Positions 33,435 through 37,347 of a stretch of 64,000 nt of DNA are shown in pieces. A model generated the notes under the pieces. It did no database searches. It was not told the origin of the DNA and saw nothing but the letters and a program-made list of their open reading frames with translations. Position 1 is the first letter of the stretch, and every line of letters starts with the position of its first letter. The stretch is taken from assembly GCA_021158055.1 (NCBI GenBank), contig JAGGVJ010000019.1, forward strand, positions 25,660-89,659. Reading direction: 5' to 3'. Source of the DNA: Candidatus Iainarchaeum sp. GTDB taxonomy: Archaea; Iainarchaeota; Iainarchaeia; JAGGVJ01. A program made the position numbers and the translations under genes.

Positions 33435-34334
33435 CTATTTTAGTGAGTGATGTCTTTCAAGAATGTTGCCTGCAAGCTTAAAGTTTCCGAAAGGCATTAT
33501 GTGCGCGCCTGCAAAGCCCAGCTTTTTTGCCTTTTCCAGCATTTCATTGGAAAATTTCAGGTTGCTTTGTGTGTCTTCTATTTCTGAAATGACTTCTTCG
33601 GGAATTGTTATTCCAGGCACATGTTCATTAAGGAACTTTGCTGTTTTTGCAGAGGTGAGCAAAAGGATTCCGGGAAGGATTTTGGTGTTGATGTCTTTTG
33701 TTGCTTTAAAGAATTCTTCAAGCAAAGTTAAGTCAAAAAAAGGCTGGGTCTGAATAAATTGCGCTCCAAAAAGTGCTTTTTGCCTGATTCTTTTTATTTC
33801 AGGGTTTTTTGCTGTTGCAAAAGATCCTCCGCCTATGAATGCATCAAACTTGTTTTCAAGGGGGTTTCCGGCAAAGTCAGCTGAATTTTCAATCATGGTG
33901 TTTACTTTTGAGATCAGTTCAATTGAGTTCATTTCAAAAACTGCTTTGGCTTTGGGGTTGTCCCCGAGTTTCGGGGGGTCGCCTGTTAAAAGCAAAAAGT
34001 TGTCTATTCCTTTTGCTTTTGCGCCAAGCAAGTCGGATTGTATTGCAATTGAGTTCCTGTCCCGGCATGTTATCTGCATAATCGGTTCAAACCCAAGCGA
34101 AACAAGTTCAATTGACGGCACAAGCGAGTTCATTATGACGTTTCCCATGGGACAGTCCACTACATTCACTGCGTCTGCAAGCACGCAGGCTTTCAGAGCA
34201 CTGTTTGTGAACTGGAAGGAGGGGGACTTCATAGGGTCTATTTCAATTGTGAGTGCAAACTGATTGTTTTCAAGTTTTTCCCGGAAAGTCTGGATTTCCT
34301 TAAGATCGTGGTTTTGAAAGTTGTTTTTTTTCAT
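33435..34334 (-). CDS. metF: Methylenetetrahydrofolate reductase-like protein
   Basis: The 299-residue TIM-barrel protein matches the MTHFR family: the catalytic-glutamate region ALTIEIDPMKSP, ITCRDRNSIAIQSDLLGAKAKGIDN, then LLLTGDPPKLG (the FAD/folate region), GAQFIQTQPFFD and a final PFGNFKLAGNIL. It would interconvert methylene- and methyl-tetrahydrofolate (or methanopterin) using a flavin. It is the last gene of a minus-strand run mtrA-mtrH-thyA-DUF4346-metF, which fits supply of a methyl-pterin to MtrH. Several archaeal members act without NADH, using a partner protein; none is adjacent. Confidence 0.88.
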   Translation of the reverse strand: MKKNNFQNHDLKEIQTFREKLENNQFALTIEIDPMKSPSFQFTNSALKACVLADAVNVVDCPMGNVIMNSLVPSIELVSLGFEPIMQITCRDRNSIAIQSDLLGAKAKGIDNFLLLTGDPPKLGDNPKAKAVFEMNSIELISKVNTMIENSADFAGNPLENKFDAFIGGGSFATAKNPEIKRIRQKALFGAQFIQTQPFFDLTLLEEFFKATKDINTKILPGILLLTSAKTAKFLNEHVPGITIPEEVISEIEDTQSNLKFSNEMLEKAKKLGFAGAHIMPFGNFKLAGNILERHHSLK

Positions 34335-34390
34335 GTTATCCTTGGTTTGCTTTTGTTTTACGTTAAAGATTGTTTTCGTTTTTACTGAAA

Positions 34391-34798
34391 TTATTTTTGG
34401 CTTTTTGAAATTTCAATGGGTTTGTCCTGAGTATATTGCAGACCGAATTTTAAAGACATTTCTGCCTTGTGCAATTCTTTTCCAAGGTATGCGTAGTGTT
34501 CGGGAAGAGACGCTTTTTCGTTTTCGATTATTGCCTGGTATACTGCAGTGGCGGTTTTTCCTACTATTGTGCTTGTCAGTTTTCCTGTAAGCATGGCACC
34601 GCCGTCAAGCACATTTTCGTAGTGTTCTGCTATAATTTGCTTTTTTTCCAGGTCATTGTGGATTACAAAAAACCCGTTCGGATCGTATTCAATTGATTTG
34701 CGTTCTTTTGCCTTGATTAATCTTACGTTATTGTCGTCGTTTTTGTTTTCTTCTGTTATTTTGAATTGTCTTTTGAGGAATTCTATTTGTTCACTCAA
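34391..34798 (-). CDS. DUF4346-type protein
   Basis: The 135-residue protein contains YDPNGFFVIHNDLEKKQIIA, a region with AEHYENVLDGGAMLTGKLTS and a C-terminal LPEHYAYLGKELHKAE-MSLKFGLQY segment. This matches what I know of the DUF4346 domain, which occurs beside or fused to archaeal thymidylate synthases and MtrA-like proteins. Its function is unknown. Here it is separate, and its start overlaps the end of thyA by 8 nt, so the two are translationally coupled. A role in the folate/corrinoid methyl pathway is inferred from this context only. The family name is moderately certain. Confidence 0.65.
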   Translation of the reverse strand: MSEQIEFLKRQFKITEENKNDDNNVRLIKAKERKSIEYDPNGFFVIHNDLEKKQIIAEHYENVLDGGAMLTGKLTSTIVGKTATAVYQAIIENEKASLPEHYAYLGKELHKAEMSLKFGLQYTQDKPIEISKSQK

Positions 34799-35477
34799 TA
34801 TTCAACACCTCTTTTACGTTTTCCCAGTTGTGGTCATAGATGTGGGCTGAACCGGAAACACAAGTGATGCTGCCGGTTTCAAAACCGCTTCCGTCTGCGA
34901 CTTTTTTCATAAGGTTGGCAAGGCCGTACATATTTGCGGGCCAGGCTCCAAAACAGTCGTGAGAGCGAAAGTAAAGGTGAAGATGCAGCTTGCTGTCTCT
35001 TACCTGGAAATGAGTGAATATGAGGCAAGGCGCTTCATCGGATTCGGTGTCAATTGGAGGAATCCAAGTGTGGCATATTGCTCTTCTTGTGTTTGATGAA
35101 GCTTTCAGTTTTTTTATCACCCAGTCAATCTGGTTTAATTCATTGTTCCATTTGTGCAGGCGGTTCCCGTAAGTGTATTTGAATTCTCCCGGGTCGCTTG
35201 AAAGAATCGTCTGGTTTGTGTACTGTTCAAGCCGTTCTTTTGACCAGGGAAACCCTTTTGGTGTCATTGGCTCTTCAAGCGGGTTTTCTATGTATGCCAA
35301 AAGCTGGAGTATTTCTTTTGTGTCGTTGTCGTACTCGCTGTGAAGAATGTGCCCCCGTTTCCATATTGCCTTGATTACTTTTGGCCAGGTTTCCCCGATT
35401 GTTTTTCCTTTGACAAAAGTTCCGATTTTTGTCGGCTTTCCTGGTTCATTGCTTTCAAAAGTCAAGTGTGTCCCCAT
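34791..35477 (-). CDS. thyA: Thymidylate synthase, archaeal ThyA type
   Basis: The enzyme methylates dUMP using methylene-tetrahydrofolate (or its pterin equivalent). The 228-residue protein is of the short archaeal type: RRAICHTWIPP, the catalytic-cysteine and ligand region EAPCLIFTHFQVR, then LHLYFRSHDCFGAWPANMYGLA with the nucleotide-binding asparagine, and SGSAHIYDHNWE. It stands between mtrH (66 bp upstream) and the DUF4346 gene (overlapping by 8 nt). Placement in the one-carbon operon suggests that thymidylate and methyl synthesis are coordinated. Confidence 0.9.
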   Translation of the reverse strand: MGTHLTFESNEPGKPTKIGTFVKGKTIGETWPKVIKAIWKRGHILHSEYDNDTKEILQLLAYIENPLEEPMTPKGFPWSKERLEQYTNQTILSSDPGEFKYTYGNRLHKWNNELNQIDWVIKKLKASSNTRRAICHTWIPPIDTESDEAPCLIFTHFQVRDSKLHLHLYFRSHDCFGAWPANMYGLANLMKKVADGSGFETGSITCVSGSAHIYDHNWENVKEVLNIE

Positions 35478-35543
35478 CTATTCTTGTTTTTTTGTTCATT
35501 TATAGTTTGCGTAGGTTTCGTGAAGTTTGTGTTTTTTGTTTTT

Positions 35544-36440
35544 TTATTTATAGATATTTAACCCGAAATCGTTTTCCGCTTCTTTTTGCATCTCGTGCAC
35601 GAATGCTGCTGCGGGAAACACGTTTTCTGCGAGTTCGATTGGTCCGAAAAGCAAAAAGTTTGAACCAAAAGCCATCTGCATTGAATTTGCAGCTACATTG
35701 CATTCGTTTTTGAATTTTTTGTGGTTTGAGTCTGAAAGCCATTCCCACGACGATATCGCATTGTGTATTCCGTTTCCGGATGGAAGCCCGAACTTTGCTT
35801 TAACTGAAGAAACGGCGCGGACAGATGCCGCGGCACCATGGCCCAGCGGAGTGGTTGCCGTGTCAATCAAAAAATTCTGCACCCCTGCTTCTTTTGCAAT
35901 ATCAACAAGGCTTTTTTTAAGGAGATTGTCTTCGCAGAGCAGGTTTAGCTTCCCGGCAAGCGATGAATCCTTTGGATTGTATAAGAGGATTATCGCCGAT
36001 TCAACGTCTGTGTTTTTGAGTTCGGTTATTTCTTTTTCAGTTACTGAAAAATTTATGGAGTTATAAATCATTTGGTCGCTTACGCCTGTTTCTGTTGCGT
36101 ACTCGGCGCCGTAAAGGCGTGTTTCCGATTCTGTTGAGTCAATTATAATTGGGCCTTCAAAGAGATTGCATGCAAAATCAATGCGTTCTTCCATTGACTG
36201 CGGGCTGTCTGCAAATATTTGTATTGCGCCGGGTATTCCTGTTGAATCTGATGCTTCAAGCTGTTTGTTTATGAGGTCTTCAGCGCGTTTTGAGTCAAAT
36301 GAACCTGATTCGCCGGTGAGTATGTTGTGTTTTGAATAAAAAATTGTTCCGCAAAGCATGGTTGGTGTTTGCCCTGGCTGGCCACCGATTTTTGTTCCGG
36401 CAATGTCAAAAATTTTTTGTGGTTTTGAAAAAACAAACAT
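35544..36440 (-). CDS. mtrH: Methyl-pterin:corrinoid methyltransferase MtrH-like
   Basis: The 298-residue barrel protein resembles MtrH, the subunit that moves the methyl group from methyl-tetrahydromethanopterin to the corrinoid of MtrA in methanogens. Matching segments are IAGTKIGGQPGQTPTMLCG, IFYSKHNI, PGAIQIFADSP, FLIDTATTPLGHGAAAS, AKFGLPSGNGIHNAIS and GSNFLLFGPIELAENVFPA. The start ATG 36440 follows GGTGAAGTAA. It lies 17 bp after mtrA. The membrane subunits MtrB-G are not in the window, so this is probably a soluble MtrA/MtrH pair acting outside methanogenesis. Confidence 0.9.
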   Translation of the reverse strand: MFVFSKPQKIFDIAGTKIGGQPGQTPTMLCGTIFYSKHNILTGESGSFDSKRAEDLINKQLEASDSTGIPGAIQIFADSPQSMEERIDFACNLFEGPIIIDSTESETRLYGAEYATETGVSDQMIYNSINFSVTEKEITELKNTDVESAIILLYNPKDSSLAGKLNLLCEDNLLKKSLVDIAKEAGVQNFLIDTATTPLGHGAAASVRAVSSVKAKFGLPSGNGIHNAISSWEWLSDSNHKKFKNECNVAANSMQMAFGSNFLLFGPIELAENVFPAAAFVHEMQKEAENDFGLNIYK

Positions 36441-36457
36441 TTACTTCACCGTTTTTA

Positions 36458-37069
36458 CTATGCTGTCTGGTTTGCCTCACTGGATTTTTCACCTATCACG
36501 CCTGTTTCGGGATCGAAAACTATTTTGTTTTCCGCGTCAATAACTGCGATATTTTCGCCGAGATTTAGGTTTATTTTTTTTTCTTTTTCTTTTTTTGTCA
36601 CAAAAAACGGTTCTCCAAAATACCCCTGGTTTTCAAGTGCGCATCGTTTGATTTCTTTTATGATTGTGTCTTTGTTTTGTGTTCCCGTTAAATCAATGAC
36701 CTGGACCTGTTCCCTGAAACGGTTCACTGCTTCCTGCGGAAGGTTTTCAAGAAACGGGATGGCTCCCTTTGAATTTATGATGCGTTTGTTTTCGTCCAAC
36801 CCAAACCTGCTAAGTGAAACAATTGATTGTCCTGTAAAGTGTCCTGTGACTTCTTCCCCGCACACAATTAAAAATCTTATGTTCGGGTTTGCAATCAGGT
36901 TGGTTACGACGCGCTCTATTCCAAGGTTTTCTGTGAGAGCGCGCCCGTACAAGGCAACTTCGTTCAAGTCAAGTTTTATGTCTGAAAAAAGAGTGAGTAC
37001 TGAAATGCTTGCGTTTGGATTTACAACAGTATAGCTCCCCTGCAGCACAGGCCATTTTTGTTTTTCCAT
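36458..37069 (-). CDS. mtrA: Soluble MtrA-like corrinoid protein
   Basis: The 203-residue protein matches MtrA of the methyl-H4MPT:CoM methyltransferase: IRFLIVCGEEVTGHFTGQSI, in which the GH histidine is the expected axial ligand of cobalt, then INSKGAIPFLENLP and VQVIDLTGTQ. It ends GVIGEKSSEANQTA with no hydrophobic helix, so unlike methanogen MtrA it is not membrane-anchored. It would carry the methyl group delivered by MtrH to an acceptor. A TATA-like CTATAAAAG lies about 27 bp before ATG 37069, so it is the first, leaderless gene of the operon. Confidence 0.9.
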   Translation of the reverse strand: MEKQKWPVLQGSYTVVNPNASISVLTLFSDIKLDLNEVALYGRALTENLGIERVVTNLIANPNIRFLIVCGEEVTGHFTGQSIVSLSRFGLDENKRIINSKGAIPFLENLPQEAVNRFREQVQVIDLTGTQNKDTIIKEIKRCALENQGYFGEPFFVTKKEKEKKINLNLGENIAVIDAENKIVFDPETGVIGEKSSEANQTA

Positions 37070-37347
37070 CACTATGAATATGGCAACGGATTCTTTTATA
37101 GATTTACTTTGCTTTGTTTGTTTGGTTTTATACCTGGTTTTTGTTTAGCTTTAATGCAAATTTTGTTCTCAAAAGGCTCCTTCAAGAAGCCCTTATTTTT
37201 TACAGGGATGCACTATTATTTGATGAAAATATAGTGGTTTAGAGGATTTATTTTTTTGAAAAAAACAAAAATGTATGTTTTTTCGACAATAAGTTTAAAA
37301 ATAAGTTCTGTAAGTAAAATTAATTACAGTTTATGAGTTATTTTGGC

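Follow-up and report, generated by a model that had tools for sequence, protein, structure and literature searches.

What would a thymidylate synthase do in an operon for corrinoid-dependent methyl transfer, in an archaeon that shows no sign of methanogenesis? The question is raised by the window analysed here, a stretch of 64,000 bases from Candidatus Iainarchaeum sp. (bases 25660-89659 of contig C16; genome of 1.147 Mb in 45 contigs, 94.9% complete). Five intact open reading frames (ORFs) follow one another on its minus strand, mtrA, mtrH, thyA, a DUF4346 gene and a metF-type gene, with intergenic gaps of 17, 66, -8 (an overlap) and 56 bases. The neighbours on either side are on the opposite strand, and the operon forms an isolated directon. 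A preliminary description of this DNA had named the same five genes; all were found at nearly the same positions, with strong Pfam and NCBIfam matches (Table 1), and five family matches so strong within a single directon cannot be due to chance. The whole genome was surveyed as overlapping stretches and compared with 87 species of the same phylum (one class, mostly small genomes). About 5% of the genome is missing, which limits every genome-wide negative given below; genes on contigs C7 and C44 (L032, L069), which are runs of N, were unreadable, and divergent archaeal versions could escape detection by the E. coli protein queries that we used.

Two routes to thymidylate are generally recognised, ThyA and ThyX, and both draw their carbon from methylene-pterin. 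We tentatively regard the operon, at somewhat less than an even chance, as a thymidylate-synthesis module supplied by a methyl-corrinoid protein. The wider proposal, a third thymidylate route in which MtrH-loaded MtrA hands its methyl group intact to an enzyme that has the ThyA fold but no folate site, in some archaea within a single polypeptide, appears possible if doubtful. In such a pathway, serine hydroxymethyltransferase (SHMT), which is encoded elsewhere in the genome, would form methylene-tetrahydropterin from serine, the MetF-type enzyme would convert methylene-pterin to methyl-pterin, and MtrH would pass the methyl group to the Co(I) cobamide of MtrA. dUMP, bound covalently to Cys151 of ThyA, would then take the methyl group from CH3-Co(III)-MtrA through its C5 carbanion, giving dTMP and Co(I)-MtrA. 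It is a guess that DUF4346 helps the complex, perhaps in pterin holding or reduction. The steps up to CH3-Co-MtrA follow from the established families and the residues found, and the order MetF, MtrH, MtrA put forward in the preliminary description agrees with what these families do; the methylation of dUMP from MtrA is suggested by gene fusion, phylogeny and active-site loss. Since no dihydropterin would be formed, no dihydrofolate reductase (DHFR) would be needed. A corrinoid route would thus account for the shared operon of metF, mtrH, mtrA and thyA, for the failure to find DHFR and for the fusion of MtrA to ThyA in other genomes.

The survey of DUF4346, ThyA and MtrA neighbourhoods that the preliminary description had proposed brought up fusions in Thermoproteota, in relatives from the same phylum and in viruses. 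Among the Thermoproteota loci, MtrA was fused to ThyA at L175, L181, L182, L163, L190 and L191, to both ThyA and DUF4346 at L188, L189 and L218, and to DUF4346 at L178, L183, L186 and L187, while an SHMT-MtrH-MtrA operon was seen in G198 (L173). In the same phylum, MtrA-like, ThyA and DUF4346 parts form single proteins at L084, L085 and L120, and one phylum triple fusion lies, as judged by eye, near thymidylate-kinase- and dCMP-deaminase-like genes. A contig scan with poorly conserved peptide queries returned three loci. Viral contigs also encode MtrA-like-ThyA(-DUF4346) proteins (L258 4317-5900, L281, L309 60-1463 and L310 1994-3397); the fusion gene of L309 stands immediately upstream of a gene for a 1207-aa tape-measure-like protein. 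In Methanothermobacter, an MtrA-like gene, thyA and metE presumably lie near each other. In the ThyA tree, the MtrA-linked proteins, including that of the window, formed one group (84/83), in which a single stand-alone long branch (G074) was nested, and were split from 24 stand-alone archaeal ThyAs (99/96). The window ThyA shares length, dUMP residues and an above-cut-off score with the archaeal or methanogen-type ThyA (TIGR03283), whereas it differs from the stand-alone proteins by its branch, in which nearly every protein sampled is MtrA-fused or MtrA-adjacent. It is likely, on this sequence evidence, that ThyA is a partner of MtrA, and the link suggests, though it does not yet prove, that the thymine methyl group can come from B12 rather than directly from folate. 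The earlier idea that ThyA and the other enzymes have only the methylene pool in common became doubtful in the light of the fusions and of the clustering of the MtrA-linked ThyAs.

The active site of the window ThyA points in the same direction. Its nucleophile is Cys151 (codon 35027-35025), and it has equivalents of Cys146, Arg126/127, Arg166, Ser167, Asp169, Asn177, His207 and Tyr209 of E. coli ThyA, whereas Glu58, Trp80, Phe176 and the C-terminal cap are absent and the tail past E. coli position 213 comprises 11 residues instead of 52. In the fused ThyAs, too, the nucleophile Cys and most dUMP residues are conserved, and Glu58, Trp80, Phe176 and the cap have been lost in nearly all cases, with scattered exceptions. 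MtrA was considered as the cause of the loss of the folate half and was rejected, because stand-alone archaeal ThyA is also without the E. coli folate residues. The stand-alone proteins have an invariant set of their own, for example His in the Glu58 column and Met in the Phe176 column, and the MtrA-linked ThyAs do not keep it; in the alignment, only this further loss of archaeal ThyA's own conserved residues would be specific to the MtrA-linked set. A confident AlphaFold model of the window ThyA (pLDDT 87.7, pTM 0.85) had the thymidylate-synthase fold, and its top matches by TM-score included AfhB (9iqu, 0.76) and MilA (5jnh, 0.78). AfhB, a phage dCMP hydroxylase, depends on FAD and not on folate, so there is a precedent for another cofactor in the thymidylate-synthase fold; however, the chemistry of AfhB and MilA differs from the one proposed here and neither has a corrinoid partner. 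The biochemistry of archaeal ThyA has been described as hardly known (PMC9012536, PMC9931769).

The window ThyA was the sole thymidylate synthase found in the genome. No match to ThyX (PF02511) was obtained there, while 56 of the 87 phylum genomes have one. In many phylum genomes (G001-G084), ORFs of about 450-590 aa contain a pair of ThyX-like stretches in the same frame and may represent a tandem ThyX family. DHFR (PF00186) was not found in the window genome either. Within the phylum, DHFR was present in all three genomes with a bacterial-type ThyA and in none of the six with an MtrA-linked ThyA, though the numbers are small and some of the genomes incomplete.

MtrA itself, on paper, would be a good cobamide protein, with every cobamide-binding feature checked being kept. 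The preliminary description had pointed to a cobalt-ligand histidine in GEEVTGHFTGQ, and it is indeed there: His78 (GTG numbering; codon 36841-36839) aligns with His84, the axial Co ligand of M. fervidus MtrA. Of the other cobamide contacts named by Wagner 2016 (PMC4915002), TEN 47-49 (Glu54/Asn55 of M. fervidus MtrA), Asn64 and GAIPFLEN 103-110 (the GAIPF-x-EN meander) are retained, so the loss of corrinoid-binding residues that would have spoken against the earlier idea was not observed. The start of mtrA may be GTG 37072 or ATG 37069, and the PF04208 family profile ends at about residue 164. With the cytoplasmic M. fervidus MtrA (PDB 5laa; PMC4915002) the protein shares the axial His, the TEN loop, the GAIPF meander, 46% identity and a profile that covers the soluble domain only; unlike that protein, it occurs in a host that shows no Mcr or MtrB-G, and its gene sits in an operon with mtrH, thyA, DUF4346 and metF. 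MtrH scored 322 bits against TIGR01114 (equivalog cut-off 271), and its nearest solved chains were MtrH (9qtp, 8z9u), followed by MtgA (6sj8). The axial His was also retained in the MtrA-ThyA fusions of G462, G432 (two different copies), G301 and G319, and was replaced by Tyr in G364.

When 43 MtrA domains were placed in a tree, the window MtrA grouped with canonical MtrA (96/80) and in a separate branch from the ThyA-fused domains, which did not form a single clade. A split-off fusion domain as the origin of the window MtrA was thus unsupported, and, with the MtrA domains scattered over the tree, it seems that the ThyA branch was paired with MtrA more than once or that MtrA was replaced. This grouping and the finding of an intact MtrA in only one of the 87 phylum genomes, the window's own, would also fit a horizontally acquired remnant, that is, genes co-inherited from a methanogen-like donor with MtrA and MtrH unused or engaged in an unrelated methyl transfer. 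We consider such a remnant very unlikely, as all five frames are intact, the cofactor residues are conserved and the genome yielded no thymidylate synthase besides this ThyA.

The preliminary description had placed the cluster outside methanogenesis, and this held. When the ORFs of the canonical mtr operon of G210 (L311) were compared with the window genome, the sole Mtr counterpart was MtrA (phmmer E 1e-3), with no MtrB-G and with MtrH detected through TIGR01114 instead, and the McrA signature motif was absent from every ORF of the genome (a motif scan only, with no Pfam search). Methanogenesis and a hidden Mtr complex were rejected on these two results. MtrA and MtrH in non-methanogens have been reported before and left unexplained (Adam et al. 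2022, PMC9635834; PMC11291895). In Asgard archaea and Bathyarchaeia, where the two also occur without other Mtr subunits, they were linked by the authors to the Wood-Ljungdahl pathway or methylotrophy (PMC9635834, PMC11291895), whereas the window pair is tied to ThyA and to C1 units derived from SHMT.

It has to be asked whether a corrinoid loaded by MetF, MtrH and MtrA might feed methionine or another small methyl acceptor instead, with ThyA only sharing the methylene-pterin pool, as had been supposed at first. For example, MtrA has been proposed as the methyl donor of the core methionine synthase MesA (Price et al. 2021, PMC7857596), and in a relative (L022) a MetF-like gene adjoins a Meth_synt_2 gene, an arrangement from which the window operon departs. 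The direct use of the MtrA methyl group in biosynthesis is the same idea as ours. However, no MesA-type protein was found in the window genome and the acceptor proposed here is dUMP, not homocysteine. Neither Meth_synt_2 (PF01717, expected for the core methionine synthase route MesA/MesB/MesC) nor homocysteine S-methyltransferase (PF02574) was found in the genome, and an E. coli MetH query gave no match, so no methionine synthase came to light elsewhere in the genome and the methionine outlet is left with no visible enzyme. As the MtrA-ThyA fusions and the MtrA-linked ThyA group would also stay unexplained, we hold a methionine outlet to be unlikely.

The same gene set could, in principle, run backwards: MtrA would bring a scavenged methyl group, MtrH would make methyl-pterin, MetF would oxidise it to methylene-pterin, and ThyA would use that for dTMP. 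MtgA, the MtrH relative mentioned above, is a methylcorrinoid:tetrahydrofolate methyltransferase and works in that direction. Yet methylene-pterin is already provided by SHMT, and no other corrinoid methyl donor was visible, the sole PF02310 B12-binding domain of the genome being part of a large ORF that also carries a radical-SAM-like CxxxCxxC motif. The direct fusion of MtrA to ThyA would not be accounted for, and a reverse flow therefore looks improbable. E. coli FolD, GcvP/H/T and FolP queries gave no matches in the genome. The metF-type product was most similar to PRK08645, namely to its reductase part, the C-terminal half (E 8e-65).

The remaining gene of the operon encodes a DUF4346 protein (85.9 bits against PF14251, cut-off 29.6) with D39, G42, H101, Y104, L105, G106, E108 and Q124 as invariant residues. 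The domain is found on its own, or it follows MtrA, ThyA, ferredoxin or a dihydropteroate-synthase-like domain (TIGR00284). Its model was fair (pLDDT 81.6). The fold search gave no convincing match: there was no Foldseek hit under E 0.4, VIA Z values reached 6.2 at most, against ribosomal proteins, and no pterin-binding relative appeared. In the open-licence literature, we found no paper that names DUF4346 or links MtrA with thymidylate synthase. Fusions of a ferredoxin-like domain (Fer4_15) with DUF4346 were observed in DPANN relatives (L117 9917-10540, L118 3004-3678, L119 3751-4464 and L121 8920-9525) and would be compatible with DUF4346 acting in redox reactions close to pterins. In one of them (G072, L117 13156-15564), an 802-aa protein combines degenerate MtrA-like, DUF4346-like and repeated ThyA-like stretches.

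Several observations weigh against a corrinoid-supplied ThyA. We know of no enzyme that methylates dUMP from methylcobamide. E. coli-type CobS/T/U, BtuR and BtuC were not found in the window genome, which would leave scavenging as the source of the cobamide. The absence of the E. coli folate residues is, as noted, common to stand-alone archaeal ThyA, and mean identity was 31% in the MtrA-linked ThyAs and 53% in the stand-alone sample; with a more diverse set, part of the conservation loss is expected and the apparent loss is inflated. Archaeal ThyA is mostly met without MtrA: in Thermoproteota, PF04208 was present in 18 of 113 genomes with a TIGR03283 ThyA, compared with 96 of 398 overall, and the idea that archaeal ThyA always needs MtrA was rejected by this co-occurrence. 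In the fusions that keep the axial His, Glu54 and the GAIPF positions are altered, and the full residue set is thus found only in the window MtrA. Furthermore, the triple fusions of DPANN relatives, G112/G136 and viruses have lost the axial His and the cofactor motifs, so those ThyAs cannot use the corrinoid route.

This last point brings in a serious rival, a three-part synthase of MtrA, ThyA and DUF4346, in which the carbon would come from methylene-pterin held by DUF4346, linked to ferredoxin in some cases, while MtrA or its degenerate copies would be a scaffold, and MtrH and MetF, with intact MtrA, would be engaged otherwise. The His-less triple fusions of DPANN relatives, other archaea and viruses, the ferredoxin-DUF4346 fusions and the position of DUF4346 behind a dihydropteroate-synthase-like domain all speak for it. 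However, the fusions that keep His in G462, G432, G301 and G319 are without DUF4346, MtrH and MetF in the operon would have no explanation, and the DUF4346 fold search returned no pterin-binding relative. We judge a three-part synthase to have a small, though real, chance of being correct.

Table 1. Features of the five-gene operon and its upstream region (positions in the window).
Feature	Position	Strand	Evidence
MtrA, soluble cobamide-binding methyl carrier (predicted)	36458..37072	-	PF04208 E 2e-51; 46% identity to M. fervidus MtrA
MtrH, methyl-pterin:corrinoid methyltransferase	35544..36440	-	TIGR01114 E 3e-96, above equivalog cut-off
ThyA, archaeal type, short, without canonical folate half	34791..35477	-	TIGR03283 E 1e-63, above cut-off
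DUF4346 (PterinBD-DUF4346) protein	34391..34798	-	PF14251 E 3e-24; start overlaps ThyA end by 8 bases
MetF-type methylene-pterin reductase	33435..34334	-	PF02219 E 5e-25
TATA-box-like TATAAAAG	37093..37100	-	about 28 bases upstream of the first mtrA ATG; read in sequence

The position of the TATA-box-like element upstream of mtrA would be weakly compatible with a leaderless transcript, in a region that is AT-rich. The window also contains an A-type ATPase operon and an archaetidylinositol-phosphate-synthase-like gene.

Other relatives of MtrA were met during the survey. A separate, PRK14053-like subfamily with the motif PPEDGxYLRGNDYSPVAV and the axial His kept (L106 6463-7152, L177 6349-7131, L184 6680-7378) adjoins genes that resemble, by eye, arsenic or heavy-metal genes (ACR3, ArsR, ArsP-like permease and P-type ATPase); these loci might represent a corrinoid-based metal methylation or efflux system. 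On bacterial plasmids, MtrA-DUF4346 fusions with a cysteine-rich N-terminal domain have largely kept the cobamide residues (L306 7350-8729, L307 6683-7864). The Planococcus plasmid fusion directly follows annotated ArsR/SmtB, cation transporter and heavy-metal P-type ATPase genes, and the Paraburkholderia plasmid fusion is near a MerR-like regulator. In Nitrosopumilales, an MtrA-like protein of 158 aa that keeps the axial His (L107 2497-2973, L108 7938-8414) overlaps an aminotransferase-like gene, DUF4346 was not found in the two genomes tested, and a similar short stand-alone form is common in other Thermoproteota genomes.

The operon is a set of known parts in a new combination, and the mechanism, if it holds, would be categorically new. 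It would amount to a new way of making a DNA base; in some archaea, B12 would take part directly in DNA synthesis as a cofactor, and the MtrA/MtrH pairs of many non-methanogens would acquire a concrete function. In the MtrA-ThyA fusions, carrier and synthase are held in one polypeptide, which makes the question directly testable.

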